Positions 536 to 16,438 of a stretch of DNA of 25,948 nucleotides are shown here, one piece after another. Position numbers and translations under genes: made by a program. This DNA is from a virus: the IMG/VR virus record IMGVR_UViG_3300042887_000043, positions 1 to 25,948 of that record; one strand, 5' to 3'. Within the stretch, counting starts at the first letter, position 1. Every line of letters begins with the position of its first letter. A model generated the notes under the pieces. It was not told where the DNA came from. It saw nothing but the letters and a program-made list of their open reading frames with translations, and searched no databases.

Positions 536-3500
536 ATGAGCCGTATTAAACGAGCAGTCAAGGGTTTTATCGATCCCATTACCACGAAGGTGGAAGACTG
601 GAAGTGGCGGGCGCTTGCTGACGTCGACAAGGAGCTCAAGCTCAAGGAAGTACCCGACTACATTCAAGGCGGCTACGGCGGCTTCATGGCCGACCAGCTC
701 AAGCGCGCAGAGGCCGGCGACCTTAACGCCCGCGACCTCATCAAGGCCTACACCATCACCCAGTCATCGATCGGGCGCGGTGGCCTGTCGCACGCGACGG
801 CAACCAAGCGCGGCTTGAAGCTGCCCAACACCGGCGGCGAAGTGCGCCCCGAGGGTGCCTTTGCCGAGTGGCTGGGCTCGCCCTTAGGGCAGCGCTACCT
901 CGACATGGCCGAGCGCGGCGAGCTCGATTCCAAGGCGCTCAAAGAAATCCAAGCGGCGTTCGCGCCCTTTGGCAAGCAGAACGATCAGGTGGCCAAGATG
1001 GAGTGGGCGGCGCAGAACCTGCCCGGCATGGCCACCGACCTCAATACCCGCGTGACCGGTTCGCTCGGCGACTGGCGCAACTACACCGACGAATTGCGCG
1101 GCATCGCGGCCGCCAAGTCAGGCTTCGTTGGCTCGCTGCTCGGCCGCGGCGACGTGCCCACGCTGGACGCGCGTCAGCTCAACCTGCACGGCACCACGCC
1201 CCCAGTCGGGCTGGGCTCGATTCAGAACCGCGGGGGCGGTGCAGGTGGGCGCGAGCTCGTCGATCGCCTGAGCGCACGCCAAGAGGCGCTTGGTCTTAAG
1301 CTTGACCCAAGCCTCAACCCCTTCTACCAGCACCTCGGCCACCACGCCGTCTGGGACAAGATCGGCAACACAGAAACCACACATGCGGACTTGGTGCGAG
1401 CGATGCGCGACTACAACAAGGGCGGTGCCGTACACATGGCTGGCGGCAGCTTAGTCAAGAAGGCTGCCAAGGCCGCCACCAGCCGCATTGACATGAACTA
1501 CAAGGACGTGACTCAGCGCACGCCTGAGCTGCAAGATGCGGCCAACAAGCTCATCGGTGGCGAGCTCTCGGCGGCCGAGTACGACGCGCTGGTCAACCAA
1601 TACAAACCCGTCACGCCCTACGCCACGGTGCCCACACCCGCCACGCGCGAGGAGGCCACCGGCGCACTCACGGCCGATAAGCGCGAGCGCTACGGCCTGC
1701 CATCGCAGACGCTGGAGCAAGGCCACCCGGTCGGACTGCGCCTTGACATCCCGTCGTACAGCAACCACGGCGTCTGGGTGCCCACCGTGCACGAGCAGGA
1801 ACCCGGCTTTGGGGCTGGCAAGAGCATCGGGCACGAGAGCGTGGCAAGCGTGCTTAACCCGCAGTTTGGCATGTCCGAGAAGGCCGCGCTGGCCATCGCG
1901 AGCGGTAAGCCCAAGGGCACGATCGCAACGATCAAGGGCGACTGGAATAAGCTGAGTGAGCAGGAGGCCGTCGAGCGCGCAAAGGAGTACCTGAAGAGCC
2001 CCGAGTGGCGTCAGGTGGGCATGGATCCCGAGCGGCACTCGTACTTCTACGACCGCGCGACTATGCAGCCCGTCACGAGCGCCGACGAGGCGCTGCAGAT
2101 CGGTCCGCTCGTGCTGGTGAAGAACCCCGTGTATGGCAAGAAGGAGGACTTTAAGTACGCCGCGGGCGGGATGGTTGACTCGGTGCCCGAGGAGGCGATC
2201 AAGAACATGGTTAAAGACCCACAGGCAGCACGACTGCTCGACCTTGATCTCGCCAAGTACGCGCTGATGAACCAGCCGCAGAAGATGGCCGCGGGCGGTA
2301 TCGCGCGCATGGCCGGCGGTGGTGCGCGCAAAGTAGCTAGGGACGCCTCAAGTTCAATTTTGAACAAAGGGTTTGAAGCACTGGAAGCGCAAGCAGCGCA
2401 AGCAGCCGCAGCCAACACGATTAAAGCCGCCGACCGGGCAGCAGCCGGGCGCGCAGCGGCAGCACAGATTGAAGCCCAGCCTGAAGTACCAATGTCAGAG
2501 GCGCTGGGCAATCTGAACACCGAGGGCAAACGGATAGTTGGCACCCAAGCCGATCGTACCCGCGTTGGGGGCGGCAACATTGGTGGTGCTCCCTTTTCCG
2601 CAATATCGCTGGCCGATCCTAACTACCAAGGTAAGGTCTGGGGCGTGGGTAGCCAAAGCGCTGCAAGTACGCTCACTAATCAAAACGACCCACGCACAAT
2701 TTGGACAACACTGCTGGGTTCAAAATTCCAGCTTAAGACCAATCCGATTGTGTTTGCCAAGCTTGAAAAAGAATTTAGACAAGCAATGAAAGACGGGAAA
2801 CTAAGCCCCGAGCTCGAAGCCAAGATCAATCACAACTTAGCGCTTAACTTTGGCGAGGGCGCTGACATCCGCGATCCGAACATTTGGAAGGCAGCCGACA
2901 GCTTTGATCGCCGCGCGGCATTGTCCGATATCATGATCGGCGAAGGCATCCCTCCTAGCAAGGGCGGCGTAGCGTTGGGCGGCGCGAAGAGCGGCAAGGG
3001 GGTTATTTTTGATCCGCTTAGCATCCTCACTCGTGAGACGGAGCCCAGCCTTCGCGGCGATGTACCCACCTTTTCGCTCGGCCCGCGTCTGTTCACGATG
3101 AGTGGCGAGACGTCGTTTCGCCCTGACTTACATCCCGGCTTTCCAATGCTGCTTCACGGCGAAGACCTTGGGTTTAACGTGCGTCCGGTGCCCAACGAGA
3201 TTGCGCTGCCTGATTATCGTACCGAGTTTGCACGACGTAATCCTACGCGCGATCCCAGCTACTACGATCTGACCAAAGGCTTTAAGGGTGAAGGCCTGCC
3301 CAGCCAGATGATCACTGAAGAGTGGTTGAGTCATTTGCAAAAGCACGGCCATAAGGACGGCGGCGCGGTGCATATGAAGGACGGCGGCAAGGCCGACGAG
3401 GACCTCTTCGCGCTCAAGCCCCAGCCCAAGCCGGCCATCCCGACGGTGCGAGAGCTCGTTGCTGAGATCGGCAAGAACCCTGCGCGCTACGAAGCACCAT

Positions 3501-6500
3501 ACCCGCCCAAGGACGCGACACCGGCTCAGATGCAGGCGTACCGACTGATGCAGGCCGCAAAGACGACGCCCGACGCCAACCGCTACCTCGAGTCGCTGAA
3601 CCCGTACTTTGACTCGCAGCTCCGCTTTGACATCGGCGCGGGCAACGAGGCAGGGTACGTCAAGTTCAAGGAGCCAAACATCGCGGTGATGCAGAAGCTC
3701 GAGGACGTGAAGAACACGATCCCCCACGAGCTCACGCACACGCTGCAGCTCGGCAAGGGCGCAGGCGTTGAGCTCGAGCGCGACCGCCAAGTCATGCAGC
3801 GCGCGCAGGCGCTACCTGCTGCAATGCAACAAAGCGTGCTGCCCTCTGATAATCGTTTTGAGAACATGAAGGAAGTCTGGGCGAACGTCAACGCCCGAGC
3901 ACACGAGGTCAACGCCGCAGGTGGTGACTTCATCAACTCGCCCGAGGGGCGTGCGTTGTTCCCCACGCCCGAGATGCAGCGCGAGTACTACACGAAGTCG
4001 ATGCCGGGCGTGAACAGCATGACGCCCAGCACCGGCACGTTTGTGCCGAATCGCAGGTACGCAGACGGCGGTGGCGTATTTAACCCACAGGGTTCTGACT
4101 ATGACTACCAGACGGCTCGCGCTTACGGTATGGGGCAAGGTGACGGCAACTGGGGCTCAGTCGCACCGGCGTCAGAAGGAGAGCGCAAGCTGCATGGCCT
4201 GCCCGAGGACAGCTACCTCATGCTTAAAGGTGCACAACATCCTACATGGGGTAAGGCTGTTGAGGCAGAAGAGTCTCGTGGCTCAAAGGTCGTCAAGTAT
4301 GGCGATCGTTACTACTCTGTGCCCAAGAAGGCCAACGGCGGTCAAGTGCAGCGTTTTGATGACGGCGGCGAAGTCAGCCAGTCAGAGCTTGATCGCATGC
4401 GCTTTGAGATTGCGCAATCCCAGAACCCGACTAGCCCCGTGATGCAGGCGACACCGCGCAGTGCGATGCAAGACGCGATCGGCACGTTCGGTGGCTACAT
4501 GGATCGTGCCGGCAAGTTCGTGAGCGAGGCGATTGCGCCGACCGCCGAAAAGCACCCGGTCAAGCACTTCCTCGCGGATCTGATTCTGGCTGAGTCGCTC
4601 AAGAGCGCCGGCACCGCGTTGCAGGACTACACGGGCACCGCACGCGAGGCAGACGAAGACAACCCCGTGCGCGGCGTTATCAGTAAGGACTGGCGCAATC
4701 TGACTACGAGCCGGGAGCCCCTACTTGACCCGCGCGCGTTGGACATCGCGGGCTTTGCAACACCAGTCGTCAGGGGTGCAACGAAGCTTGCCCGAGTGGG
4801 TGCGAAAGCTGTTGCCCCGTTTGCAACGAGGGTCGACGACATGGTGCGTGAACTCAGCGCGTCAGGCGCGATCCCGCAGCCGGGTCTGTCAATCAAGGAT
4901 GTCACACCCAAGGCTCTTGCCCCCGCCAACGCGCAGGGCTTCTACTCGCCCACCGAGGCTGCTGCATTGAACCTGCAGCGCAAGTCTGGCAGCGGGCAGG
5001 CGCTCTTGAACGACGTCTTGAAGGGCGAGAACGTGCGCGCGGAAGAGGTCAGCAGGATGGGGCTCGATACGTTCCTGAAAGATAATCCCAACGTCACGGC
5101 CGCCGAGGTGCAGGACTACATCGCCAAGAATAAACTACAACTGGGCGACAGGACCTACAAAAAAGAAAACGTGAAGTGGGGTGAGAATGAGAACGGTGAG
5201 ATAGTCACTGAGAACTTGCCGAACCCGTACACGATTTCAAGCGAGTACGGTAAGACGTACATCACCAATTCCAAAAACAATACGTTAGGCATAACGTTTA
5301 AAAACGAGGCAGAAGCTAAGAAGTACATCGAGGACTTGGTCGTCGATGACGCCCTGCTGCCCAACGACCTGAAGTGGGCGCAGTGGTCGCTACCCGGTGG
5401 CGAGAACCACCGCGAGGTCACCCTGAACCTGCCAAGCGGCAAGCGCGAGGACATGGTGTACAAGGAGCAGAGCCTTGAGTCGCTCAAAAGAGGGGCGCTA
5501 GACTACGCGGCAATGGGCGACCTCAGCAGCGCCAAGCAGCTCTCAACAAGAGCCGAGAAGCTCGAGCGCGAGATCGAGCAGTTAAAGCGTCAACCACAGA
5601 ACCGCACGCCCGAGTTTCCCAAGCAAGCCGAGATTGATGACTTAGACGCGCGCATGGCGCAGCTAAAGGCCGAGGGTAATCGTGAAGAATTTGGCAAGCT
5701 ACAGAGTGAAAGAACCGAGCTGCGTGCTGAGCGCAGTGCGTACTTAGCGCGCGAAGAAGCGCGGCTTCAAAAGGAAGCATACACAAATCAATTCCGCGAA
5801 TCGCACTGGGAGGACCCCAACGTGCTTGCCCACCTGCGCATGAGCGACCGGGTCACCGACGGCAAGAAGACGCTGTTAGTTGACGAGGTGCAGTCTGACT
5901 GGCACCAGAAGGGTCGTGAGCGCGGCTACAAGGGCGACGAGATTGACACCACTGGCTGGGAGGTGGAACACCTCTACGCCACCCGGCCTGACGAGGTTGC
6001 CGTGTATGACGCCCGCGGCAAGGAAATCTGGGCGGGTAAGGTAAAAGGCGACGATGCGCAGGCAATAGAAAAGGTTGTCGAGGAGCTTAAGAAGAAGCAG
6101 GTGCCACAAGCCCCATACAAGGACGACTGGTATCAGCTTGTACTGCGCCGCGCAATCAAAGAGGCAGTTGATGGTGGGTACGACCGCGTGGCGTTACCCA
6201 CTGGCAGCGAAGTGGCGCAGCGGTTTGGTATGGGCAATCTCATCGATCGTATTGACTACCACAAGAACTCCGACGGCACTTACGGACTATCAGCCATCAA
6301 AAACGGTCGCGAAGTCGTTGCGAGGGAGTACCTTAAGCAAAACGAGCTTTTTGATATTGTTGGCAAAGAAATGGGGGAGAAAATGGCTAAGGGTCAGGGT
6401 AAGGACTCGGTTCCAATTGATCCTGACTTGGCAGAAGAGTACGGGTTTGATTCTTATAAATCACTCACAGGTCTTGATCTTGTTGTTGGCGGCAAGGGTA

Positions 6501-6742
6501 TGAAGAAGTACTACGACGAGGTCTACCCTAACTACCTTAAAAAGTTTGGCAAGAAGTACGGCGCAACTATTGGCGAGACGACCGTTGACGCGGACGGTGT
6601 AGCCAAGCCACTGCGCTACATGGATATCACACCAGCAATGCGTGAAGAGTTTAAGACTGGTATTCACATGAAGCGTGGCGGCAAGGTGTCGTTCGCCTCA
6701 AACGTTGACGCAATGCGTCATGAATTAACACAAAGGCAATAA
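536..6742 (+). CDS. Giant modular polyvalent-type phage protein (2068 aa) with HExxH metallopeptidase module
   Basis: A single uninterrupted frame lies between terminase and portal. Modules I can separate: (1) about residues 1-220, helical, ending in GFVGSLLGRGDVPTLDARQ; (2) about 398-535, with RQVGMDPERHSYFYDR, resembling a large-polyvalent-protein-associated (LPD) domain; (3) about 660-935, beginning GTQADRTRVGGG; (4) about 955-1175, a zinc-peptidase-like module with HELTH at 1064-1068; (5) about 1185-1262, with YDYQTARAYGMG and a late HPTW; (6) about 1280-1460, helical; (7) about 1468-1540, starting GFYSPTEAAALNLQ; (8) a coiled coil at about 1650-1750; (9) about 1774-1900, with DEVQSDWHQKGRERGY and GGYDRVALPTG, a segment widespread in phage and plasmid polyvalent proteins. 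GG-x-V motifs (G296, G544, G942, G1179, G1268, G1277, G2048) fall mainly between modules. Iyer, Burroughs and Aravind proposed that polyvalent proteins are carried into the host with the DNA to counter defences; applying this here is inference. Activity of the peptidase is unproven. Confidence 0.8.
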   Translation: MSRIKRAVKGFIDPITTKVEDWKWRALADVDKELKLKEVPDYIQGGYGGFMADQLKRAEAGDLNARDLIKAYTITQSSIGRGGLSHATATKRGLKLPNTGGEVRPEGAFAEWLGSPLGQRYLDMAERGELDSKALKEIQAAFAPFGKQNDQVAKMEWAAQNLPGMATDLNTRVTGSLGDWRNYTDELRGIAAAKSGFVGSLLGRGDVPTLDARQLNLHGTTPPVGLGSIQNRGGGAGGRELVDRLSARQEALGLKLDPSLNPFYQHLGHHAVWDKIGNTETTHADLVRAMRDYNKGGAVHMAGGSLVKKAAKAATSRIDMNYKDVTQRTPELQDAANKLIGGELSAAEYDALVNQYKPVTPYATVPTPATREEATGALTADKRERYGLPSQTLEQGHPVGLRLDIPSYSNHGVWVPTVHEQEPGFGAGKSIGHESVASVLNPQFGMSEKAALAIASGKPKGTIATIKGDWNKLSEQEAVERAKEYLKSPEWRQVGMDPERHSYFYDRATMQPVTSADEALQIGPLVLVKNPVYGKKEDFKYAAGGMVDSVPEEAIKNMVKDPQAARLLDLDLAKYALMNQPQKMAAGGIARMAGGGARKVARDASSSILNKGFEALEAQAAQAAAANTIKAADRAAAGRAAAAQIEAQPEVPMSEALGNLNTEGKRIVGTQADRTRVGGGNIGGAPFSAISLADPNYQGKVWGVGSQSAASTLTNQNDPRTIWTTLLGSKFQLKTNPIVFAKLEKEFRQAMKDGKLSPELEAKINHNLALNFGEGADIRDPNIWKAADSFDRRAALSDIMIGEGIPPSKGGVALGGAKSGKGVIFDPLSILTRETEPSLRGDVPTFSLGPRLFTMSGETSFRPDLHPGFPMLLHGEDLGFNVRPVPNEIALPDYRTEFARRNPTRDPSYYDLTKGFKGEGLPSQMITEEWLSHLQKHGHKDGGAVHMKDGGKADEDLFALKPQPKPAIPTVRELVAEIGKNPARYEAPYPPKDATPAQMQAYRLMQAAKTTPDANRYLESLNPYFDSQLRFDIGAGNEAGYVKFKEPNIAVMQKLEDVKNTIPHELTHTLQLGKGAGVELERDRQVMQRAQALPAAMQQSVLPSDNRFENMKEVWANVNARAHEVNAAGGDFINSPEGRALFPTPEMQREYYTKSMPGVNSMTPSTGTFVPNRRYADGGGVFNPQGSDYDYQTARAYGMGQGDGNWGSVAPASEGERKLHGLPEDSYLMLKGAQHPTWGKAVEAEESRGSKVVKYGDRYYSVPKKANGGQVQRFDDGGEVSQSELDRMRFEIAQSQNPTSPVMQATPRSAMQDAIGTFGGYMDRAGKFVSEAIAPTAEKHPVKHFLADLILAESLKSAGTALQDYTGTAREADEDNPVRGVISKDWRNLTTSREPLLDPRALDIAGFATPVVRGATKLARVGAKAVAPFATRVDDMVRELSASGAIPQPGLSIKDVTPKALAPANAQGFYSPTEAAALNLQRKSGSGQALLNDVLKGENVRAEEVSRMGLDTFLKDNPNVTAAEVQDYIAKNKLQLGDRTYKKENVKWGENENGEIVTENLPNPYTISSEYGKTYITNSKNNTLGITFKNEAEAKKYIEDLVVDDALLPNDLKWAQWSLPGGENHREVTLNLPSGKREDMVYKEQSLESLKRGALDYAAMGDLSSAKQLSTRAEKLEREIEQLKRQPQNRTPEFPKQAEIDDLDARMAQLKAEGNREEFGKLQSERTELRAERSAYLAREEARLQKEAYTNQFRESHWEDPNVLAHLRMSDRVTDGKKTLLVDEVQSDWHQKGRERGYKGDEIDTTGWEVEHLYATRPDEVAVYDARGKEIWAGKVKGDDAQAIEKVVEELKKKQVPQAPYKDDWYQLVLRRAIKEAVDGGYDRVALPTGSEVAQRFGMGNLIDRIDYHKNSDGTYGLSAIKNGREVVAREYLKQNELFDIVGKEMGEKMAKGQGKDSVPIDPDLAEEYGFDSYKSLTGLDLVVGGKGMKKYYDEVYPNYLKKFGKKYGATIGETTVDADGVAKPLRYMDITPAMREEFKTGIHMKRGGKVSFASNVDAMRHELTQRQ

Positions 6743-6744: not shown

Positions 6745-9297
6745 ATGGCCACTGAAATGCCAATCCCTCAGGACTTCGGTCGCTTTATCCCGCCCGCGGC
6801 GCAGGGTGACAACGAGTTCGCAAGCAGCGAGTTCGGCGACGTTGCCGAGGTCGACCTGTTCAAGCAGCCTGAGGTTGAGGAGCAGGACGACGGCTCAGCG
6901 ATTGTGCGTCTAGATGATGACACGCTGGGGCCAGAAGACTCACCGGACTTCTACGAGAACTTAGCCGAAAGCATCCGTGCGTATGACTTATCGGGCATCG
7001 CGTCTAAGTACATCGAGCTCGTTGAGAAGGACAAGGACGCCCGCGAAGGTCGCGACAAGCAGTACGAGGAAGGATTGCGTCGCACAGGACTTGGGCAAGA
7101 CGCCCCCGGTGGCGCATCTTTTATGGGTGCCAGTAAGGTCGTGCACCCCATCATGGCCGAGGGCTGCGTGGACTTCGCAGCGCGCGCCATCAAGGAGTTG
7201 TTTCCACCAGACGGGCCAGTGCGCTCAAAGATTCTGGGCGAGGTGACTGAGCAGAAGACGATGATCGCCGAGCGCAAGCGCGATTACATGAACTACCAGT
7301 TGACCGAGAAGATCGAGGAGTACCGTGACGAGGAAGAGCAGCTCTTAACCCAGTTGCCGCTCGGTGGCTCGCAGTACATGAAGATCTGGTACGACGAGAG
7401 CAAGCGCCGTCCGTGCGCCGAGTTCCTGCCGATCGATAACGTGTACTTGCCCTTTGCCGCGGCGAACTTTTACACCGCGAGCCGTGTGACCGAGGTCAAC
7501 GACATCACGCAAGACGACTTTGAGGCTCGCGTCTCATCAGGTCTGTACATCGATCTTGACATCTACCGTGCGAGCCAAGAGCCTGAGGAGAGTAAGCCTG
7601 AGAAGGCGAACAACAAGATTGAGGGTCGCAAGTCAGAGTCTGACAACATTGACGGCGTGCGCCGCGTGTTCCACATCTACACGTGGATGGAGCTCGAGGA
7701 CGATCAGAAGTCCAAGGGCGAGCGTGCGCCCTACATCCTGATGATCGATGACCTGTCGTCCGAGGTCGTGGGTCTGTACCGTAACTGGGAAGACGGCGAC
7801 GAGCTCATGACTAAGCTCGACTGGATCGTTGAGTTTAAATTCATCCCTTGGCGAGGTGCGTATGCCGTTGGTTTGCCCCATCTTATTGGCGGTCTGTCTG
7901 CTGCTCTTACTGGTGCTTTGCGGGCTCTGCTTGATTCTGCTCATATAAACAACGCCCCCACGATGCTCAAGCTCAAGGGTGGCAAGGTGTCTGGCCAGAG
8001 CATTGTTGTCGAGCCCACGCAGGTCACGGAGATTGAGGGTGCACCGGGCGTGGACGACGTGAGAAAGATCGCGATGCCGATGCCGTTTAACCAACCCTCT
8101 GCGGTGTTGTTTCAGCTTTTAGGCTGGCTTACATCGGCGGCTAAGGGTGTAGTGACTACCGCCGAAGAGAAGATCGCTAACGTCACCTCTAACGCCCCCG
8201 TAGGCACCACGCAGGCGCTGATCGAGCAGGGTGCTGCGGTGTTCTCATCCATCCACGCGCGGCTGCACACAAGCCAAGCACGGGTGCTCAAGATCATCGG
8301 GCGCTTGAATCGCTGGTACTTGGATGACAACCCTGACGAGATGAGTCAAGAGTTAGGCGTCACCTCAAAGGACTTTGAGAAGAACTCTGACGTTGTACCA
8401 GTGTCGGATCCCCACATCTTTGCGGAGTCACAACGCTATGCACAAGTACAGGCTCTCGCCGCACGCGCGCAGGCGAATCCAGACCTATACAATCGACTGG
8501 CTGTTGAGAAGCGAATTCTTAAGCAGATCAAGCTTCCTGATATCAATGAAGTGCTACCTGATCCGCAAGACGTTAAGGAAATGAACCCCGCGCTTGAGAA
8601 CGTCGCCATGACGCTTGGTAAGCCCGTTGGCGCGTTTCCCAACCAAGAGCACTTAGCGCACATGCAAGTTCACTTGGACTACGCCAAGGACCCTATGTAC
8701 GGCGCAAGCCCCATCATGGCCCCGGTGTTTATCCCCGCGATGCTTGAGCACTTAAAGCAGCACTTAACGCTCTGGTACCTGAACTCGATGGACCGGTACG
8801 CGTCTGACGCGCTAGGCGAGCAGTTTGATATCTTGAAGGTGCAACCCATCATTCAGGAGGCGCAGAAATTGCTTGCAGCGAGCTCGCAGCACGTGCACCA
8901 AGACACGCAGCAGCAGTTTGCGGGTGTGGTGCCGATCATGCAGCAGATGATCCAGACCATCCAGCAACTTAAAGCGCAGCAACAGCCTACTGATCCGTCA
9001 GTGCAGGCGCTTGTTCAGACCCAGATGGCCGAGACTAACCGTAAGGCGGCAGAGGATCAGGCTCGTTTACAGCTTGATGGCGCAAAACTCGCGGCAGATA
9101 CGAAGGCCAAGCAGGAGAAGAACGTTGCCGACCAGCAGATTAAGGCGGCAGAGCTCACGCACGACATCAACTTACTCACGCTTGAGCAGCAGCACGAAGC
9201 ACAGCGTCAACAACTCGCAGCACAACAGCAGCAACAATTAGCAGCACAACAAGCAGCACAACAATCCCAACCTGAAGCACCACCCCAAGGAGTTTAA
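6745..9297 (+). CDS. Portal (head-tail connector) protein
   Basis: The 850-residue product has the length and block pattern of large podovirus portals. Recognisable segments are VHPIMAEGCVDFAARAIKELFPP (about residues 130-155), the acidic YRDEEEQLLTQLPLGGSQYMK region, the GLPHLIGGLSAALTGALRALLDSA helix-rich crown/wing segment, and PSAVLFQLLGWLTSAAKGV before the long helical C-terminus. The last ~150 residues are Gln-rich and predicted helical or coiled coil, ending in a low-complexity AAQQ run. Role by family: a dodecameric ring at one head vertex, the channel through which terminase pumps DNA and the platform for the adaptor. AAAGG about 10 bases upstream of ATG 6745 serves as ribosome site; the gene starts 2 bases after the giant gene stops. 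Near the N-terminus DGSAI (49-53) is shared with the scaffold. Confidence 0.88.
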   Translation: MATEMPIPQDFGRFIPPAAQGDNEFASSEFGDVAEVDLFKQPEVEEQDDGSAIVRLDDDTLGPEDSPDFYENLAESIRAYDLSGIASKYIELVEKDKDAREGRDKQYEEGLRRTGLGQDAPGGASFMGASKVVHPIMAEGCVDFAARAIKELFPPDGPVRSKILGEVTEQKTMIAERKRDYMNYQLTEKIEEYRDEEEQLLTQLPLGGSQYMKIWYDESKRRPCAEFLPIDNVYLPFAAANFYTASRVTEVNDITQDDFEARVSSGLYIDLDIYRASQEPEESKPEKANNKIEGRKSESDNIDGVRRVFHIYTWMELEDDQKSKGERAPYILMIDDLSSEVVGLYRNWEDGDELMTKLDWIVEFKFIPWRGAYAVGLPHLIGGLSAALTGALRALLDSAHINNAPTMLKLKGGKVSGQSIVVEPTQVTEIEGAPGVDDVRKIAMPMPFNQPSAVLFQLLGWLTSAAKGVVTTAEEKIANVTSNAPVGTTQALIEQGAAVFSSIHARLHTSQARVLKIIGRLNRWYLDDNPDEMSQELGVTSKDFEKNSDVVPVSDPHIFAESQRYAQVQALAARAQANPDLYNRLAVEKRILKQIKLPDINEVLPDPQDVKEMNPALENVAMTLGKPVGAFPNQEHLAHMQVHLDYAKDPMYGASPIMAPVFIPAMLEHLKQHLTLWYLNSMDRYASDALGEQFDILKVQPIIQEAQKLLAASSQHVHQDTQQQFAGVVPIMQQMIQTIQQLKAQQQPTDPSVQALVQTQMAETNRKAAEDQARLQLDGAKLAADTKAKQEKNVADQQIKAAELTHDINLLTLEQQHEAQRQQLAAQQQQQLAAQQAAQQSQPEAPPQGV
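9217..9264 (+). repeat. Gln/Ala-coding low-complexity repeat at the portal C-terminus
   Basis: The 11-base unit gcagcacaaca occurs at 9217, 9241 and 9253, surrounded by further CAA/CAG codons, giving an AAQQ-rich tail on the portal. Such simple repeats can change length by slippage. The portal barrel of P22-type portals is also C-terminal and helical, so the tail may extend a barrel, but this is inference. Confidence 0.7.
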
Positions 9298-9299: not shown

Positions 9300-9581
9300 A
9301 TGTCAGACGCAATTTCACAACACAAACGCATGGCAATGGGCGAGTCTGTGCCTATGGCTAAGGGCAAGTCAGTCATTCAAAAGTACGCCAAGGGCGGCGC
9401 AGTCATGGCAGAGGGCGGCGCAGCTAATCTGCCAGCAAGAGGCGGCGTTCTAGAGCCAATGAAATCAACGGGCGCAAAGATTGCCAGCCTTAAAAAAGGC
9501 GGCGCAGTGCCTAAGAAGGGCATGGGCTTGACGATCGCCATTGGCATCCCAGTGCGCAAAGCGGCCGGCCGTGGTCGTTAA
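9300..9581 (+). CDS. Small Lys/Gly-rich protein with repeated GG-x-V motifs
   Basis: The 93-residue basic protein is rich in Lys, Gly, Ala and Met, with no obvious hydrophobic segment. It carries KYAKGGAVM, MAEGGAANL, ARGGVLEP and KKGGAVPKK, the same double-glycine motif that punctuates the giant protein and two later small proteins. AAGGAG lies about 9 bases upstream of the ATG, inside the end of the portal gene, so translation initiation should be efficient. It begins 2 bases after the portal stop. No catalytic motif is visible, and function is unknown to me. Position and composition suggest a virion-associated or head-internal protein, perhaps DNA- or scaffold-contacting because of its positive charge; that is inference. 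Confidence 0.7.
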   Translation: MSDAISQHKRMAMGESVPMAKGKSVIQKYAKGGAVMAEGGAANLPARGGVLEPMKSTGAKIASLKKGGAVPKKGMGLTIAIGIPVRKAAGRGR

Positions 9582-9778: not shown

Positions 9779-9894
9779 GGTCGGGCTTTTGATAAGGGTC
9801 ACCGACCTAACCACTCGGCTTTAGAGTTGACGCCTCGGAAAGACGAGGATAACCGCGCCGAATGGCGCTTTTAACCAAGTGCCGCATGGCGCTT
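9779..9894 (+). promoter_or_regulatory. Leader of the co-chaperonin gene with several short inverted repeats
   Basis: Four possible stems occur in this non-coding stretch: GGTCGG/CCGACC (9779-9784 with 9802-9807, 17-base loop), CCTCG/CGAGG (9833-9837 with 9844-9848), GCGCC/GGCGC (9855-9859 with 9864-9868) and AAGTGCC/GGCGCTT (9877-9883 with 9888-9894). The last ends 3 bases before the AGGAG ribosome site at 9897-9901. A 12-base direct repeat (atggcgctttta at 9862 and 9886) lies in the same stretch. Individually the stems are short and could arise by chance; their clustering next to a promoter and a ribosome site makes a regulatory leader plausible. Confidence 0.35.
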
Positions 9895-9906
9895 TTAGGA
9901 GTGAGT

Positions 9907-10317
9907 ATGAAGGACTTTGAGACCCTCGACGAGGCGTTCCCGCAGTGTGTGCACGGCATCACCCCTCTTGGCGCTCGAGTGTTGTTACAGCTCAAAAGCG
10001 TCAAAAAAGCAAGTAAAGGCGGCATCATCCTCGTTGAAGAAACACGCGAAACTGAGCGTGCGCAGTCAATGATCGGCAAGGTCTTGGCACTCGGTCCGAT
10101 CGCATTTAAAAACCGTGACACTTTATCCGAATGGGGCGAAGGAATTTGGTGCTCAGTCGGCGACTACGTGCGCGTACCGCGCTGGTCAGGCGACCGGTTC
10201 ACGGTGCCCAACCCGAACGACGCAGAAGACCAAGTTTCACTGCAAATCCTGAACGATTTTGAGTTGTGGGCGAAGGTTGACCCTGACCAAGTCTTGACCA
10301 TGAGGCAATTCGTATGA
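9907..10317 (+). CDS. GroES-like co-chaperonin
   Basis: I start at ATG 9907 because AGGAG ends 5 bases before it; two further in-frame ATGs upstream (9862, 9886) lie in a repeat without ribosome sites. The 136-residue product follows the GroES plan: GITPLGARVLLQL (first strand), a mobile-loop-like KKASKGGIILVEE whose IIL matches the GroEL-binding hydrophobic anchor, SMIGKVLALGP, then CSVGDYVRVPRW, and a final SLQILNDFELWAKV strand. It is longer than host GroES (about 97 residues) and T4 gp31 (about 111), the extra length lying between the strands (GPIAFKNRDTLSEWGEG) and at the C-terminus. Phage co-chaperonins pair with host GroEL, in T4 to fold the capsid protein. The location next to scaffold and upstream of the capsid gene fits that. 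The stop overlaps the scaffold start (ATGA). Confidence 0.85.
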   Translation: MKDFETLDEAFPQCVHGITPLGARVLLQLKSVKKASKGGIILVEETRETERAQSMIGKVLALGPIAFKNRDTLSEWGEGIWCSVGDYVRVPRWSGDRFTVPNPNDAEDQVSLQILNDFELWAKVDPDQVLTMRQFV

Positions 10318-11267
10318 ACCCGACAGAAAAAATGGAAATGCAGGTCGACGAGGAGCAAGACGGCTCCGCGATCGCCCAGTTACCCGAGGGCGAAGCGCCC
10401 GAAAACGACGAAAAGGTTGAACTTGCCGAGGGCGGTGACGTTGATGCCAACGACGGGCTTGATAAAGACCCCGATCGTGAGGCAATTCGCGCTGCCCGAC
10501 GCGAAGAGCGTCGACTCAAGAAGTCTATTCACCGTGAAAAGACAAAAGAGTCCAGCCACCTGATCAATAACCTGCGCACACAGAACCAGCAGCTCTCGGA
10601 GCGCTTGGCGCACCTTGAAAAACGCACCTCTGGGGCTGAATTAGCCCGTGTTGACAAGGCGATTGACGACACCGAGGTGCAGATCGAGTACGCAAAGATG
10701 AAAATGCGTGAGGCGGTCGCAAATCAGGACGGTGACGCAGTCGTCAAGGCTCAGGAGCTGATGTACGAGTCGCAGCGCAAGCACGAATCCTTGAAAAACA
10801 TCAAGGATCAGGCAACACGCCAGATGTCGCAGCCACCCAAGCCCACGATGAACGTGCCCGACCCGTCCGTTCAGCGCAACGCCGCCGAGTGGATGGAGCG
10901 CAACCCGTGGTACGACCCACAGGCCAAGGACATGGACTCGGAAATCGCCCAGCGTTTGGACAAAAAGCTCACCGACGAGGGTTATGACCCATCTTCGCCC
11001 GATTACTGGGAAGAGCTTGATGATCGCGTGTCAAAGTACTTGCCTCACCGCACCGGTACTGCAGCACCTGCCCGTGCAGCCCAACGCCCACGCATGACAG
11101 GCTCTGGGCGCGAGTCTGCGCCGACTGGGCGTGGTAACGAGTTCAGGCTCTCTGCTGACCGCGTGCAGGCAATCAAGGACATGGGCGCGTGGGATAACCC
11201 CGATCAACGCGCCAAGATGATCAAATCCTACGCAAAATATGACCGTGAAAACAAAAGGAATACATAA
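10314..11267 (+). CDS. Capsid scaffolding protein
   Basis: The 317-residue, very charged protein starts by a 4-base ATGA overlap with the co-chaperonin. The N-terminus is acidic (DEEQDGSAI, EGEAPENDEKVELAEGGDV), followed by a long basic then heptad-like coiled coil (about residues 55-165, including RREERRLKKSIHREKTKESS and NNLRTQNQQLSERLAHLEKR), and a C-terminal part with NPWYDPQAKDMDSEIAQRL and a basic tail (SYAKYDRENKRN). This profile and the position just before the capsid genes are those of podovirus scaffolds, which fill the procapsid and leave before or during packaging. Basic C-terminal helices contact the capsid protein in P22-like systems. It shares DGSAI with the portal N-terminus and contains one GG-x-V motif (residues 40-43). 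No prohead protease gene is seen. Confidence 0.8.
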   Translation: MNPTEKMEMQVDEEQDGSAIAQLPEGEAPENDEKVELAEGGDVDANDGLDKDPDREAIRAARREERRLKKSIHREKTKESSHLINNLRTQNQQLSERLAHLEKRTSGAELARVDKAIDDTEVQIEYAKMKMREAVANQDGDAVVKAQELMYESQRKHESLKNIKDQATRQMSQPPKPTMNVPDPSVQRNAAEWMERNPWYDPQAKDMDSEIAQRLDKKLTDEGYDPSSPDYWEELDDRVSKYLPHRTGTAAPARAAQRPRMTGSGRESAPTGRGNEFRLSADRVQAIKDMGAWDNPDQRAKMIKSYAKYDRENKRNT

Positions 11268-11837: not shown

Positions 11838-11930
11838 TGGATGCCCGCTTTGTAAAAAGCAGGTATCCACACCAAATTTAGTCCTAAAAATCATGTTTCA
11901 GATGATTTTGCCTGTAGCTTTGAAGAAAGC
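11838..11930 (+). promoter_or_regulatory. Structured leader with three consecutive hairpins before the decoration/capsid genes
   Basis: Hairpin 1 pairs 11838-11851 with 11856-11869: about 13 pairs with one C-A mismatch and one G-U pair, closed by the four-base loop GTAA, a GNRA-type tetraloop in RNA. Hairpin 2 pairs AAAATCAT (11887-11894) perfectly with ATGATTTT (11902-11909), 7-base loop. Hairpin 3 pairs GCTTT (11917-11921) with AAAGC (11926-11930), 4-base loop. They lie between the candidate promoter and the ribosome site AGGAG (11959-11963). None is followed by a proper T-run after a GC stem, so termination is not the obvious role; mRNA stabilisation, processing or translational control are possible. 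I do not recognise a known riboswitch. Confidence 0.6.
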
Positions 11931-11969
11931 GAAAACATTATCCCTTTAACTGTTTTTTAGGAGCATCCT

Positions 11970-12557
11970 ATGAGTGCAACCTCTGCACCTTTTGGCCTGC
12001 GACCTGCGTATTTCCCAACAGGGTTGGAACGCGCACAAGCTCTGGCTAATGGCATCACCTCGGGCTACGGCACCTCGATCTTAAAAGGTCAGGCTGTTCA
12101 GTACTCGCCAAACGCTGGCGTCATCTTGCCAGTTCTGGACACAACAACCAACAGCGGCTTAGTCTCTGGTGCCTTCGCAGGCGTCGAGTGGACTGACACA
12201 ACTGGTCGTCGCCGTGTCTCTAACTACTGGCCTGCAAGCACTACTGCAATCGCCGGTAGCGTCGTCGCCTATTTCTACAACGACCAACAAATCGTCTACG
12301 AAATTCAGACTGACGCAACTATGGCTCAAACTTCGATCGGTAACGAAGCGAACTTGAGCAACTTCACTGCAGGTTCTACCACCACTGGTCTGTCACAGAT
12401 GACTCTGTCGGCATCGCTTGTTGGTTCAGGCAGCACTGGTCAGTTCCGTATTGTTGATATTGCACCATACCCAGATAACAACTGGGGCGATCCTTTTGTG
12501 ATCGTTCGTGTACAGGTCAGCAACCCTCAATTTGTGGCTGCTAAAGCCGCTATCTAA
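11970..12557 (+). CDS. Probable capsid decoration (head-stabilising) protein
   Basis: The 195-residue product is beta-rich and starts PFGLRPAYFPTG, with GYGTSILKGQAVQYSPNAGVI, FAGVEWTDTTGRRRVSNYWPA and a C-terminal WGDPFVIVRVQVSNPQFVAAKAAI. Short beta-barrel proteins of this kind sit directly upstream of the capsid gene in many podoviruses and are generally taken as decoration or head-stabilising proteins; family assignment here is by pattern recollection, not by search. AGGAG at 11959-11963 gives a good ribosome site, and 11 bases separate the stop from the capsid gene, so the pair is translated from one mRNA. The gene is preceded by the three-hairpin leader. A head fibre subunit would be the alternative reading. 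Codon use is relaxed compared with the GC-richer scaffold. Confidence 0.62.
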   Translation: MSATSAPFGLRPAYFPTGLERAQALANGITSGYGTSILKGQAVQYSPNAGVILPVLDTTTNSGLVSGAFAGVEWTDTTGRRRVSNYWPASTTAIAGSVVAYFYNDQQIVYEIQTDATMAQTSIGNEANLSNFTAGSTTTGLSQMTLSASLVGSGSTGQFRIVDIAPYPDNNWGDPFVIVRVQVSNPQFVAAKAAI

Positions 12558-12568
12558 GGAGAACTGAT

Positions 12569-13483
12569 ATGGCAGCTCCAATGCGCAGTACGGACTTCCG
12601 ATCGATTGTTGAGCCAATCCTCAACGAATGCTTCGACGGAATCTATGACCAACGAGCCGATGAGTGGAGCACAGTGTTCCGCGAGCAAATGGGCATCCCA
12701 CGTAACTACCACGAAGAACCCGTCCTGTACGGATTCGGCGCAGCACCTCAGTTACCTGACGGCACCCCCGTCTCGTACCAGCAGGGCGGCGTGCTGTTCC
12801 TCCAGCGCTATGTGTACAACGTCTACGGCTTAGCCTTCGCGTTGACCAAAGTTCTGGTTGAGGACGGCGACCACATCCGTATCGGTCAGGTCTACGCTAA
12901 ACACTTAGCGCAGTCGTTGATTGAGACAAAAGAACTGCTCGCAGCTAACGTATTGAACCGTGCGTTCAATAGCAGCTACGTCGGCGGCGACGGCGTTTCA
13001 CTCACCAACACCTCGCACCCGATCGTCAACGGCGTGTTCAGCAACCAGCTCACGACCGCAGCTAACTTGTCGCAAACTTCGCTTGAGCAGATGCTCATCC
13101 AAGTGCGTCAAGCTGTGGACAACAACGGCAAGAAGATCCGTCTTCAGCCGCTGAAGCTGATTGTTGCACCCGGCAACGTCTTCCAAGCAGAAGTCCTGCT
13201 CAAGTCTGTGCTCCGCACCGGCACCGCCAACAACGACATCAACCCAGTCAAGTCGATTGGTCTGATGCCCGAGGGCGCTTCGGTACTGAGCCGTTTGACT
13301 TCAGCCACCAACTGGTGGGTGCAGACTGACGCGCCAGAAGGTCTGAAGTTGATGATGCGCCGTGGTCTTGAGAAAACGATGGAGGGCGACTTCGAAACTG
13401 ACTCAATGCGCTACAAGGCAACAGAGCGGTACACGATTTCGTGGACTGATCCTCGCGCAGTGTACGGCACGCCCGGCGTGTAA
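12569..13483 (+). CDS. Major capsid protein
   Basis: The 304-residue product fits a HK97-fold major capsid protein. Visible elements are an N-terminal arm (FRSIVEPILNECFDGIYDQRADEW), an extended loop region (QMGIPRNYHEEPVLYGFGAAPQLPDG), a long spine-type helix region (YAKHLAQSLIETKELLAANVLNRAF), SNQLTTAANLSQTSLEQMLIQVRQ, then PLKLIVAPGNVFQAEVLLKSVL, typical for the P-domain of this group, and a C-terminal W-V-Q-T-D segment followed by YTISWTDPRAVYGTPG. AAGGAG lies 8-10 bases before the ATG. There is no N-terminal scaffold/delta domain or protease gene, in agreement with a separate scaffold gene. The short intergenic gap to the decoration gene and a terminator right after its stop define a two-gene unit likely expressed at very high level. 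Confidence 0.88.
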   Translation: MAAPMRSTDFRSIVEPILNECFDGIYDQRADEWSTVFREQMGIPRNYHEEPVLYGFGAAPQLPDGTPVSYQQGGVLFLQRYVYNVYGLAFALTKVLVEDGDHIRIGQVYAKHLAQSLIETKELLAANVLNRAFNSSYVGGDGVSLTNTSHPIVNGVFSNQLTTAANLSQTSLEQMLIQVRQAVDNNGKKIRLQPLKLIVAPGNVFQAEVLLKSVLRTGTANNDINPVKSIGLMPEGASVLSRLTSATNWWVQTDAPEGLKLMMRRGLEKTMEGDFETDSMRYKATERYTISWTDPRAVYGTPGV

Positions 13484-13490
13484 AGCAACA

Positions 13491-13522
13491 GGGGCTAGTC
13501 CAAAAGATTAGCCCCTTTTTTT
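13491..13522 (+). terminator. Strong intrinsic terminator after the major capsid gene
   Basis: A 10-base stem GGGGCTAGTC (13491-13500) pairs with GATTAGCCCC (13506-13515) around loop CAAAA, with one G-T pair, and is followed at once by seven T residues (13516-13522). This is the textbook layout of a Rho-independent terminator and the clearest one in the window. It begins 8 bases after the capsid stop codon. Confidence 0.92.
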
Positions 13523-13559
13523 CTATCAACCGAGTGGTTCAAGCCACAGGAGATTTAAA

Positions 13560-14537
13560 ATGCCCCAATTTTCAGACGACCTATTCTTAGGTTCAGCCAT
13601 TACCGTTCAGGGTGCGGATACTTACCCTACTGTCTCAACCTTTACTGGTTCAATTGCTACAACCACATTGACTGTCACCGCAATGCTCTCTGGTGATCCA
13701 ATTACTGTTGGTATGTTTATTGACAGCTCAACGTCACTTACCAATGGAACTTACATTACCGCTTTTGGTACAGGTGCAGGCGGCACAGGAACTTACACCG
13801 TAAGCGCCTCACAAACTGTAGCAAGTGCCACAATCATTGGTTCTGGTAATGCGTTATTGCAAAACCCATCCTCAATGAGCGTAGGCGTCGGGCCGTTAGG
13901 TCGCATCTACGTTTGGGATGCTGTCCCACAGGCAAAGCTTACAACCAACATTGTTGCTGCTGTCATCACAACTGCCACCACGCTTACGCTTGCCGCAGGT
14001 GCAGGTGTGACATCCGCCACGATCACAGGCGGTGCCACAGGCTTGCAACTTGACTGCCCTCGTGCTGTTTCTACAACCACAGGCGCAGGTACTCCGACTT
14101 CTGTCAACATTACCATTTCGGGTTACGACTATTACGGTCAAGCCATGAGCGAAGTGATCGCAACTGGTACAGTCGCATCAACAACGGTCAACGGTAAAAA
14201 AGCCTTTTACCAAATCTCTAGCGTTACCGCTTCAGGCGGCAGCGTGGTGACTGTTGCTGTGGGTACAACTGACATCTTGGGTTCGCCATTGCGCATTACC
14301 GACAGAGGTTACGTTGCCCGTGCAGGTTGGGATAACACCTTGGCTGAAGATGCAGGCACAATGACTGTTGCCGCTACTTTGACGGCTACTACAACCACAG
14401 GCGATGTGAGGGGTACATATTTACCCTCATCTGCTTGTGACGGTATTAAACGTCTTGTAATGGGAATAGCCCTGCCAGCAATTGCGGCAGGCCCGAACGC
14501 AACTCGTACTGGCGCTCTCGGCGTCACACAAGCCTAA
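13560..14537 (+). CDS. Beta-rich accessory virion protein with an inserted [13 protein letters not shown] domain
   Basis: The 325-residue product is Thr/Gly/Ala/Val-rich and predicted nearly all beta. The N-terminus [24 protein letters not shown] appears interrupted by a compact module (about residues 28-98; [13 protein letters not shown], then [21 protein letters not shown]) that is a common inserted domain in phage virion proteins, after which the host fold seems to resume at [23 protein letters not shown]. The rest has further strands ([40 protein letters not shown]). I take it for a head- or neck-associated structural or fibre-like protein, because it lies between capsid and adaptor genes. 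CAGGAG is the ribosome site. It sits 37 bases after the terminator, with no clear own promoter, so it depends on readthrough or an unrecognised start. Confidence 0.6.
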
Positions 14538-14547
14538 GGGGTAGATC

Positions 14548-15093
14548 ATGGGTTTCAAAGAGATGAAGATGATGAAATCTACCGAGCCCTCAGTTGACGA
14601 GGCCGGTAAGGGCATGAAGAAAGGCGGCAAGACAAAGATGCAAATGGGCGGTGCAATGCCTACTGCTCCTCTAGCCGCTGCAGCCCAACCTATGGGTCGT
14701 CGTCCCATGCCCTCGCGCCCAGCAATGGGTCGCCCAGCAATGGGTCGCAAGCCTGATCCTCGCGCAGCAATGCTCGAGGCCGCGATGGCTCAGCGTGCAG
14801 GAGCCCCGATGATGCGCAAGAAAGGCGGCGAAGTTGAAGGCAAAGCAATGCACATGAAAGAAGAGCGCCAGATCAAGGGAATCAAGAAAGAGTTGATGTC
14901 TCATGAAGGCAAGCCAGCATCTAAGGCTCACAAGGGTCTTAAAACTGGCGGCATGCCTAAGTACGCAACTGGTGGCGTTGTGCAGAAGTACGCAACCGGC
15001 GGTGTCGTGCAGAAGTACAAAGACGGCGGTCATGCTGTGATGGCTTGCAAAGACGGTGGCGGCTTTAAGGCGATGAAAAAAGGCGGTTGCTAG
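14548..15093 (+). CDS. Lys/Met/Gly-rich protein with tandem GG-x-V motifs
   Basis: The 181-residue, strongly basic product has almost no hydrophobic core and is probably disordered or peptide-like. It contains PAMGRPAMGRK repeats (about residues 56-66) and many double-glycine motifs: KKGGKTK, QMGGAMP, RKKGGEVEG, KTGGMPKY, then two tandem copies of KYATGGVVQ, KYKDGGHAV, CKDGGGFKA and KKGGC at the extreme C-terminus. The two Cys residues lie in the last 15 residues, the last one being the C-terminal residue. AAGGGG lies 7-12 bases before ATG 14548. Function unknown; the charge fits packaging near DNA, and the shared motif links it with the giant protein and with genes at 9300 and 15926. An arginine/lysine-rich internal head protein is one possibility (inference). 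Confidence 0.65.
   Translation: MGFKEMKMMKSTEPSVDEAGKGMKKGGKTKMQMGGAMPTAPLAAAAQPMGRRPMPSRPAMGRPAMGRKPDPRAAMLEAAMAQRAGAPMMRKKGGEVEGKAMHMKEERQIKGIKKELMSHEGKPASKAHKGLKTGGMPKYATGGVVQKYATGGVVQKYKDGGHAVMACKDGGGFKAMKKGGC
14961..15017 (+). repeat. Tandem in-frame repeat coding the KYATGGVVQ motif
   Basis: Two imperfect copies of a 27-base unit (about 14961-14987 and 14988-15014) differ only at synonymous positions (for example act/acc, ggc/ggt) and lead into a third divergent copy coding KYKDGGHAV. Retention of the protein motif with drift at third positions points to selection on the peptide rather than a fresh duplication. Confidence 0.7.
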
Positions 15094-15103
15094 TAATAAA
15101 TCG

Positions 15104-15123
15104 GGGGCGGCTTCGGTCGCCTC
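15104..15123 (+). promoter_or_regulatory. Hairpin with a C(UUCG)G tetraloop in the gap between genes
   Basis: Eight consecutive pairs (15104-15111 with 15116-15123, two of them G-T) close the loop TTCG, flanked by C and G, the exceptionally stable cUUCGg tetraloop in RNA. It lies in the 50-base gap 11 bases after one stop and 10 bases before the ribosome site AAGGAA of the next gene. No T-run follows, so it is not a standard terminator; RNA processing, 3' end protection or attenuation are possible. Confidence 0.6.
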
Positions 15124-15143
15124 AACTCAGCCAAGGAATAGCA

Positions 15144-15923
15144 ATGGGTACATATTCGTCAGCAACTCGTCAGGGTGCGTACGAGCCGTTTGAATTGCAA
15201 GTCGCTCGTAATCAAGTTGATGGTCACAAAACTTTGTTTAAATTTGGCATCAACGGCGATGTCGGCACATCCGTAGAAACAGTTTGGGCGCAAGGCGGGA
15301 CATATGTGTACCCCGCTTCTGCCACGGTAATGAAAATTTCTAGTTCAAGCGCAGACGACACTTCTGCTGGAACTGGAGCAAGAACAATTGCTATTTTTGG
15401 TCTTGATGCAGATTACAACGAAATTAGCGAGTCTGTCCTTTTAGATGGGCAAACAGCAGTCAACACTGGCAACAGTTATTTGCGTATTTCTCGTATTTAT
15501 GTGACCACAGCGGGTTCTGGTGCAACTGCCGTAGGAACTATTTACGCTGGCACTGGCACTGTTACTTCTGGCGTCCCTGCAAACATATACGGCATGGTTG
15601 CTATTGGTGCAAACCAAACGCAAATGGCATTTTGGACTGTACCTGCTGGGTACACCTTGTATTTGATGGGAGTTTTCTACACATCTGGAAACGCAACCGC
15701 AAATACTTGGACAAACTTTCAAATGAATCAGCGTCCATTGGGCGGAGTTTTTAGACAACAAACTTCGGCTAGGGTTGCTGGTAATGGTGACTTCATTCTT
15801 GATTTGCACACCCCTCTTGTTTTTGCTGAAAAGACAGACATTGAAATTAGAGCAATTGCTTCAGCAGGGGCTTCTAATGTGTCTGCTGAATTTGAAGGCA
15901 TCTACATCAAGAACCCAGACTAA
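15144..15923 (+). CDS. Beta-rich virion structural protein
   Basis: I choose ATG 15144, since AAGGAA lies 6-11 bases before it and the frame extension to 15087 would cross a stable hairpin and overlap the previous gene. The 259-residue product has GAYEPFELQVARNQVDGHKTLFKFG at the N-terminus, VWAQGGTYVYP, the strand-turn pattern TGARTIAIFGLDADYNEISESVLL followed by AVNTGNSYLRISRIYVTTAGSG, and a C-terminal LDLHTPLVFAEKTDIEIRAIASAG. This GLDxxYNEISExVxLxG pattern is widespread in podovirus virion proteins of unknown exact place, often annotated as structural or head-fibre proteins. Base use is visibly more AT-rich, with more T-ending codons, than in the neighbouring genes, suggesting separate acquisition. 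No catalytic residues recognised. Confidence 0.6.
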   Translation: MGTYSSATRQGAYEPFELQVARNQVDGHKTLFKFGINGDVGTSVETVWAQGGTYVYPASATVMKISSSSADDTSAGTGARTIAIFGLDADYNEISESVLLDGQTAVNTGNSYLRISRIYVTTAGSGATAVGTIYAGTGTVTSGVPANIYGMVAIGANQTQMAFWTVPAGYTLYLMGVFYTSGNATANTWTNFQMNQRPLGGVFRQQTSARVAGNGDFILDLHTPLVFAEKTDIEIRAIASAGASNVSAEFEGIYIKNPD

Positions 15924-15925
15924 TC

Positions 15926-16438
15926 ATGCCGAGCAAATCACCTGCCCAAAAACGTTTAATGCAAGCCGCTGCGCACACTAAGGGTGGGTTCGGCGGTGTG
16001 CCTCAGAAGGTCGGCAAAGAGTTTGCGGCGGCTGATAAGATGAAAAGCGGTGGGCTATACGCCAACATCCACAAAAAACAGGAACGTATTGCTGCGGGCT
16101 CGGGCGAGCGTATGCGCAAGGTAGGCAGCGCAGGAGCACCGACCGCAGCAGCTTTTAAGCAGTCTGCAAAGACTGCAAAGATGAAAGACGGCGGTGATGT
16201 CTCTTTAGCAGTCGGTCGGGGCGAGAAATTGCCAACAGATCAAGGGGCAGGGCTGACCGCCAAAGGTCGTGCGAAGTACAATGCAGCAACAGGGTCGAAC
16301 CTGAAAGCCCCTCAGCCAGAGGGTGGTAGCCGTAAAAATTCATTTTGCGCCAGAATGTCTGGTGTAGTCAAGCACGCAAGCGGTGATGCGCCACGCGCAA
16401 AAGCCTCCTTAAAACGCTGGAAATGTCCGGGGTGGTAG
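15926..16438 (+). CDS. Small basic protein with SPAQKRLMQAAAH, YANIHKKQERIAAGSGE and C-terminal DUF6321-like segments
   Basis: The 170-residue product shows three blocks. The N-terminal SPAQKRLMQAAAHTKGGFGGVPQKVGKEF and the middle YANIHKKQERIAAGSGERMRKVGSAGAPTA are short modules common in small phage proteins. The C-terminal GRGEKLPTDQGAGLTAKGRAKYN plus KNSFCARMSGVVKHASGDAPRAKASLKRWKCPGW looks like the domain I remember as DUF6321; without a search this name is tentative. One clear GG-x-V motif (KMKDGGDVSLAV) joins middle and last block. Two Cys (in FCARM and WKCPGW) bracket the last block. The gene stops directly before the adaptor ATG with no gap. Function unknown; basic charge and context suggest a virion or DNA-associated role. 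The start has only a weak ribosome site, so coupling to the upstream gene is likely. Confidence 0.65.
   Translation: MPSKSPAQKRLMQAAAHTKGGFGGVPQKVGKEFAAADKMKSGGLYANIHKKQERIAAGSGERMRKVGSAGAPTAAAFKQSAKTAKMKDGGDVSLAVGRGEKLPTDQGAGLTAKGRAKYNAATGSNLKAPQPEGGSRKNSFCARMSGVVKHASGDAPRAKASLKRWKCPGW

Follow-up and report, generated by a model that had tools for sequence, protein, structure and literature searches.

A 25,948-base virus record (IMG/VR IMGVR_UViG_3300042887_000043), called the window here in its full length, raises the question of why a short peptide built around two glycines (GGxV) recurs in otherwise different proteins encoded near the portal gene. The window gene order runs from the end of the terminase through a giant protein of 2068 amino acids, the portal, small proteins, a GroES-like protein, a scaffold-like protein and the capsid to the tail genes; the portal is named by a PHROG match and the capsid by a weak NCBIfam match, and the other names follow from gene order and annotated relatives. 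On balance, the motif is probably a modular capsid-targeting (cargo-loading) signal, because it is enriched, concentrated in head genes, shared by many different protein bodies and placed in predicted linkers and at termini.

Enrichment of the motif in head genes

The window and the first set of related loci were scanned with the pattern [YMFKR]x[polar]GGx[VIAM] on open reading frames (ORFs) called by a simple script, not a gene finder; as this pattern was picked after the sites were seen, the other genomes carry the weight. In the window, all 14 motif strings reported by the initial annotation were recovered in the proteins it had named, with KYATGGVVQ present twice in tandem. The giant protein holds 9 copies compared to an expected 0.50 when its own sequence is shuffled, a 181-amino acid basic protein holds 4 (0.27 expected) and a 93-amino acid basic protein holds 2 (0.14 expected), and the single copies in a 170-amino acid basic protein (0.14 expected) and in the portal (0.07 expected) are each non-significant alone.

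Related loci were collected through the window portal (best 80 of 307), through the 170-amino acid protein (best 80 of at least 599) and through a distant relative's portal (best 80 of 114). Across 80 related loci, the motif was found 186 times in homologues of the giant protein (11.7 expected), 129 times in homologues of the 93-amino acid protein (6.4), 122 times in homologues of the 181-amino acid protein (7.9), 21 times in homologues of the 170-amino acid protein (2.8) and 104 times in ORFs without a window homologue (14.5). In these same loci, homologues of the capsid, the GroES-like protein and seven other structural genes contained no motif at all, and neither the terminase (1 versus 2.5 expected) nor one tail gene (1 versus 2.4) showed enrichment. 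Portal homologues yielded 48 motifs (4.8 expected), all of which represent one inherited site; this site (KLKGGKV) lies inside the portal fold, the majority form in nine diverse portals is KLKGAKI, and the portal was therefore rejected as a motif carrier. In loci L117 to L166, reached through the 170-amino acid protein and with this portal absent from the stretch read, 210 motifs were counted on the same strand versus 38.8 expected, and 2 on the other strand versus 1.6.

The initial annotation had called for a scan of other podovirus genomes against shuffled controls, looking for enrichment in head-region proteins. A scan of five related contigs from phages, each 55-75 kb long, with the pattern [YMFKRHL]-x-polar-G-G-x-[VIA] shows such an enrichment: within -9 to +10 kb of the portal, taken as the head region, 67 motifs were counted compared to 6.74 expected, a ten-fold excess, and outside this region 15 compared to 15.38 expected. 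The motif is also directional: forward and reverse counts are 126 and 0 in 181-amino acid-like proteins, 51 and 0 in 93-amino acid-like proteins, 243 and 11 in large ORFs upstream of the portal, and 94 and 2 in other downstream ORFs. Glycine codons at the motif closely follow background glycine codon usage; on this ground a DNA-level repeat was rejected as the source of the motif, and selection would act on the protein.

The scaffold-like protein is so named from its gene position and composition; no database match gives that name. Its proposed motif was borne out in its homologues, where GG-x-[VIA] occurs within the N-terminal 90 residues of 61 of 127 distinct sequences (4.1 expected), comprising all 17 from the window's clade, 36 of the 51 from clade C, none of the 30 from clade B and 8 of 29 others. 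Under the first pattern only 2 motifs were counted (1.2 expected) because leucine at position -3 is excluded. In clade C, lysine at -3 is favoured both by the scaffold-like protein (21 of 30 sites) and by the large proteins encoded upstream of the portal, referred to here as cargo (97 of 265 sites, compared to 19 of 123 in clade A and 13 of 92 in clade B), and the 181-amino acid family stays mostly tyrosine or phenylalanine at this position. This common preference is weak evidence for a shared partner, because it represents a single clade shift.

A second motif, EExxDGSA[IV]xxL, is found in the acidic N-terminal parts of both the portal (window 6877-6912) and the scaffold-like protein (10347-10382). 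DGSA[IV] is present in 129 of 137 distinct portals, in 68 of 127 scaffold-like proteins and in 17 of 3,544 other ORFs, some with the same flanks; through the second motif, the portal and the scaffold-like protein may dock on the same partner.

A longer tag on large cargo proteins

On large cargo proteins, GG-x-V frequently opens a longer, two-part tag and is then followed by a short spacer and a helix, D-x-M-[RK]-x-[EA]-L. ORFs just upstream of the portal carry like C-termini on differing bodies (GGKVSFASNVDAMRHELTQRQ, GGIVQQNPTTDQMRYALMMRRK, GGHVSLDNMRYELLQRH and GGNVNIDAMRLALMKG). A full-tag pattern, written after those C-termini were seen, matched 151 times in 4,408 ORFs (249 sequences), compared to 2.4 times in shuffled and 0 in reversed sequences; one annotated genome with the tag, ctpbd312, comes from an uncultured phage. 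A tblastn search of phage records with a 26-amino acid tag returned no match.

The C-terminal ends of these ORFs were compared across 153 portal loci, 10 of which had no adjacent ORF of at least 250 amino acids; the remainder provided 100 distinct 40-residue tails. With the helix written as D-x-M-[RK]-x-[EANT]-[LIM], and E, N, Q or S also permitted at the first position, 71 of the 100 tails contained it, 59 of them together with GG. By eye, the 29 helix-less tails consist of 22 near variants (for example MDTMLLEL and GTMRYEM), 1 doubtful case and 6 with nothing similar. In the control, the helix was present in 8 of 1,088 tails of other ORFs, compared to 0.56 in shuffled tails. All eight of these control tails carry GG and by eye belong to second cargo ORFs, and this resemblance to cargo suggests that the tag is independent of portal adjacency. 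A motif-rich protein of the 181-amino acid type is present in 48 of the 50 loci with enough flank, and the strict tag was detected in 38 of those 48 and in both remaining loci, and is missing in 10.

The giant protein of the window contains one internal and one C-terminal full tag; the helix downstream of GGxV was absent from the initial annotation. The motif-bearing features of the window are given below.

536..6742, + strand: multidomain putative cargo protein of 2068 amino acids, polyvalent-type, between terminase and portal, with the most motif copies
1412..1438, + strand: GGxV site YNKGGAVHM of the giant protein
2156..2179, + strand: GGxV site YAAGGMVD of the giant protein
2285..2311, + strand: GGxV-like site MAAGGIARM of the giant protein
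3350..3388, + strand: double site HKDGGAVHMKDGG of the giant protein, in a low-confidence, likely disordered linker of the structure model
4058..4078, + strand: GGxV site YADGGGV of the giant protein, in a low-confidence linker of the model
4328..4417, + strand: internal full tag KANGGQVQRFDDGGEVSQSELDRMRFEIAQ of the giant protein, GGxV plus predicted helix
6668..6739, + strand: C-terminal full tag MKRGGKVSFASNVDAMRHELTQRQ of the giant protein, followed by the stop codon
9300..9581, + strand: 93-amino acid basic protein directly 3' of the portal, with GGxV sites at 9381-9419 and 9489-9509
10314..11267, + strand: scaffold-like protein, with AEGGDV at 10425-10442 in a variable acidic N-terminal tail
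14548..15093, + strand: 181-amino acid basic low-complexity protein, with RKKGGEV at 14815-14835 and the array KYATGGVVQ-KYATGGVVQ-KYKDGGHAV at 14959-15039
15926..16438, + strand: 170-amino acid basic protein, a GLYANIH module plus MKDGGDV (16181-16201) plus DUF6321

The giant protein gave no Pfam match over cut-off and no NCBIfam match; its residues 1757-2047 match phrog_7348 (E 3e-13), which is annotated as endolysin. A conserved QSDWH domain at approximately residues 1740-2050 (window 5891-5905) recurs in many cargo proteins at varying positions. A cargo fragment compared with the PDB gave no fold match at E <= 0.001 and no sequence match.

The modular character of the tag was examined in 159 distinct large ORFs, which were placed in 131 clusters, at least one of them made up of long 181-amino acid-type proteins. 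The tag is present in 79 of the 131 clusters (34 of these 79 with a QSDWH-type domain), and of 102 tags, 58 are C-terminal and 44 internal, unlike the N-terminal position of T4- and P1-type signals; copies at residue 23 were found in L060 and L061. The tag is preceded by 92 distinct 30-amino acid contexts, in 48 clusters, and is therefore not a single domain's tail; the 48 context clusters and the 71 of 100 tails depict a short peptide common to many different bodies. Module breakpoints, taken as the ends of pairwise alignments (n=3,813), lie within 10 amino acids of GGxV in 604 cases compared to 203 expected, a three-fold excess, and the maximum reached in 300 circular shifts was 261. An AlphaFold model of giant residues 880-2068, built with 36 sequences, was poor overall, with a mean predicted local distance difference test score (pLDDT) of 57.6; all six GG motif sites of this fragment, placed by hand, fall in segments under pLDDT 50, a class that covers 43 percent of residues, and helices were predicted at low confidence for both tags.

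A second sample of 27 contigs from bacterial genome bins, which was not used for pattern setting, yielded 86 GGxV motifs compared to 20.5 expected and 4 tags compared to 0.10, with 0 in reverse; this sample is not fully independent, as the L287 portal shares 94 percent identity with that of the window and the L281 tail equals the L175 tail. By eye, of 15 portal-adjacent tails inspected in it, 6 carry the DxM helix, 2 another shared tail and 7 neither. Two of its contigs, L293 and L294, have a common internal module at different places, and their last 18 residues are 89 percent identical, with GGSVEFQNLYNKYIG at the end and no significant alignment between the module and this end. The shared ending is a possible second tag dialect and could also be read as a recombination junction seen in two portal-adjacent cases.

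Further observations concern neighbouring and distal proteins. The GLYANIH and DUF6321 parts of the 170-amino acid protein are separate neighbouring ORFs in the connector-capsid interval of Synechococcus phage S-RIP2 (translated), and in Pelagibacter phage HTVC168P the match spans short ORFs between the scaffolding and capsid genes; 217 phage records match this protein, and a literature search on DUF6321 and HVA1 found nothing. Four distal ejection or tape-measure-like proteins (L249 7085-8926, L254 195-4949, L260 7431-10196 and L263 16123-19863) have a C-terminal domain in common, which contains DGEYV and closes with an LD-x-[ML]-R-E-x-I-R-x-HKR helix resembling the cargo tag, with GGxV preceding that helix in two of the four (L254 and L263); the domain is matched by 11 phage records, 4 of them annotated as tape measure. 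On the tail side, window positions 20747-25646 encode four glycine-rich proteins of 315-350 amino acids with 45-50 GG each, in which the motif is absent except for RGTGGTVTS in two.

A probable targeting signal and its alternatives

If the motif is a capsid-targeting signal, its full form would be bipartite, with a GG-x-V turn or strand in a disordered linker followed by a short amphipathic helix, D-x-M-R-x-E-L, and would sit at the C-terminus and between modules of large cargo proteins from the terminase-portal interval. The short form, GG-x-V only, would act as a single copy in the scaffold-like protein, within its acidic tail, and in multiple copies in the small basic proteins whose genes follow those of the portal and the major capsid protein. 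During procapsid assembly, the cargo, the small proteins and the scaffold-like tail would dock through the motif on one common surface within the growing shell, and a module gaining the tag would be co-packaged and later ejected. We infer packaging, the common partner and ejection from these patterns, and a location of the carriers inside the head is suggested by gene position only. The initial annotation had suggested a short linear motif with a single recognising partner, possibly a tag that takes cargo into the head through scaffold or portal. Its first part stands as the best reading of the enrichment, breakpoints, tails and contexts; the proposed entry route is conjectural, since the scaffold-like protein itself carries the motif and the portal site is unconserved. 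Because it carries the motif, the scaffold-like protein appears as likely to be a fellow ligand as the receptor, and it may share one docking site with the small basic proteins.

Several of these observations could also be produced by a mere flexible linker or hinge, in which GG breaks secondary structure and modules recombine there with no recognition involved. Breakpoints do cluster at GGxV, and the six sites of the modelled fragment do fall in low-confidence segments; however, a hinge would not call for an asymmetric sequence (243 forward versus 11 reverse), leaves the D-x-M-R-x-E-L helix unexplained, and fits poorly with tags at extreme C-termini, where nothing is linked, with tandem arrays in small proteins and with a copy in the scaffold-like protein, so that we consider it unlikely, if worth keeping in view. 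Rather improbable, in our judgement, is a processing site at which a protease cuts after or near GG, separating modules or trimming C-termini in head maturation. The sites lie between modules, the window giant contains HELTH at residues 1064-1068, P1 DdrB is processed before packaging, and polyvalent proteins include zincin-like peptidases (PMC5512222, excerpts). Against this, an HExxH pattern is present in 8 of the 79 clusters with a tag, the helix downstream of GG shows conservation though cutting would remove it, tags stand at extreme C-termini, and tandem copies in small proteins suit binding better. No match to the prohead protease family PF04586 or to PF03412, the C39 peptidase that would go with a double-glycine leader, was obtained in seven records (possibly incomplete for PF03412, whose control was detected in 8 of 14), and PF10123 and PF03420 were found in 0 of 7, but their positive controls were also silent, so these two say little. 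This alternative, already raised in the initial annotation, thus gained no support.

RGG/KGG-like boxes bind nucleic acid, and the motif might accordingly hold basic proteins on packaged DNA, given that the small carriers are basic and lysine is common before GG. We regard this as quite improbable, as the sites in the scaffold-like protein and many of those in cargo are acidic or neutral (ELAEGGDV, FDDGGEV, YADGGGV), and what recurs in the motif is Y, F, M or K at -3 and V at +2, together with the helix. Least credible is mimicry of the GroES mobile loop (GG-I-I/V-L), which would make the carriers ligands of GroEL. The window GroES-like protein does contain SKGGIILV, its gene (9862-10317) adjoins the scaffold-like gene, and in six relatives the head cluster includes an annotated GroES gene. 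GroEL contact, however, requires hydrophobic residues at +1 and +3, which are present together in only 12 of 768 motif sites, and on this count the mimicry fails.

Returning to a capsid-targeting signal, a number of points weigh against it. Of 80 portal loci with at least 3 kb of upstream sequence, the full tag is missing upstream in 17 and GGxV in 3, and in L064 the cargo is without the motif and the small proteins retain it. The full tag alone gives a weaker breakpoint signal than GGxV, with 99 versus 56 within 10 amino acids and 289 within 40, equal to the highest shift. The 4 tags of the second sample are confined to 3 of 27 contigs, and the stretches read of KcrB, CRP-901, HTVC027P, Alcaligenes phage QDWS535 and Pag-Yong1, distant relatives with this portal family, contain neither a tag nor any ORF in which the motif count exceeds two. 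The clade B scaffold-like proteins are without the motif (0 of 30 within 90 residues, and a single site when 100 are read), which implies that this copy is not needed for tagged cargo. A position-specific scoring matrix trained on cargo GG sites scores reversed windows nearly as well in the 181-amino acid family (area under the curve 0.777 versus 0.757) and gives 0.855 versus 0.756 reversed in the 93-amino acid family. In addition, the loci are mutually related, so that counts are of non-independent events, and the cargo clusters were selected for the tag or two motifs.

A broader scheme can be offered tentatively, as a conjecture built on the sequence patterns. In such an address code, giant cargo, small core proteins and the scaffold-like protein would all use one docking motif, followed by a helix whose dialect differs between clades (mostly DxMRxEL; EFQNLYNKYIG in L293 and L294); a tagged module would become injected cargo, and the second motif EExxDGSAIVxL would join the portal and scaffold-like tails.

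Comparison with known systems

Few systems, represented here by T4 and P1, have been described at the sequence level for how phages choose the proteins that are packed and injected. Polyvalent proteins of phages and conjugative elements are giant mosaics (up to 35 percent in phages) and likely packaged (Iyer et al. 2017, PMC5512222, excerpts), and the main text of that paper does not contain "double-glycine", "GG motif" or "linker". The window giant resembles them in gene order and module mosaic, being multidomain, encoded beside portal and terminase genes and assembled from shuffled domains. In the titles and opening lines of abstracts on tags, polyvalent proteins and tape measure proteins, no description of the motif was found, with most subscription journals outside the search. 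Among classical tape measures, lambda gpH and N15 gp16 contain GYATGGYV, close to KYATGGVV, but no such motif is present in HK97, Mu, TP901-1 or P2 (the P2 gene being incomplete at its start), and with the motif in just two of six this link was rejected.

Encapsulin cargo-loading peptides are short and C-terminal and dock cargo to the interior of an HK97-fold shell; they differ in sequence from the present tag, for which shell docking is only suggested. If the targeting reading is true, the mosaic proteins of environmental phages have a transplantable C-terminal tag by which injected proteins could be predicted from nothing but sequence and which would offer a new means of filling phage heads with chosen proteins; the question of how polyvalent proteins enter virions would become a 24-residue fusion test.

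The closest parallels are the capsid-targeting sequences of T4 and P1. The T4 internal proteins IPI-IPIII share a short N-terminal targeting sequence of approximately 10 residues that suffices to bring foreign proteins into the head, as 10 residues of IPIII do, and that is cut off by the gp21 protease (PMC9026906, excerpts). The likeness is that of a short peptide on otherwise different proteins, with a place inside the head predicted here from gene position; the difference is that the present tag is C-terminal, internal or tandem, has another sequence and comes with no known protease in the records searched. P1 DarB, a 250-kDa capsid protein, is packaged via its N-terminus, 30 residues of which are enough for a reporter (PMC9024508, excerpts). 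As in DarB, a targeting signal would be present on a giant internal protein, with packaging here proposed from the genes; the DarB signal is N-terminal and shown for one protein, whereas the present tag is repeated, bipartite and found on many cargos. If the reading is right, the tag would work like the T4 and P1 signals, with place, sequence and repetition of its own.

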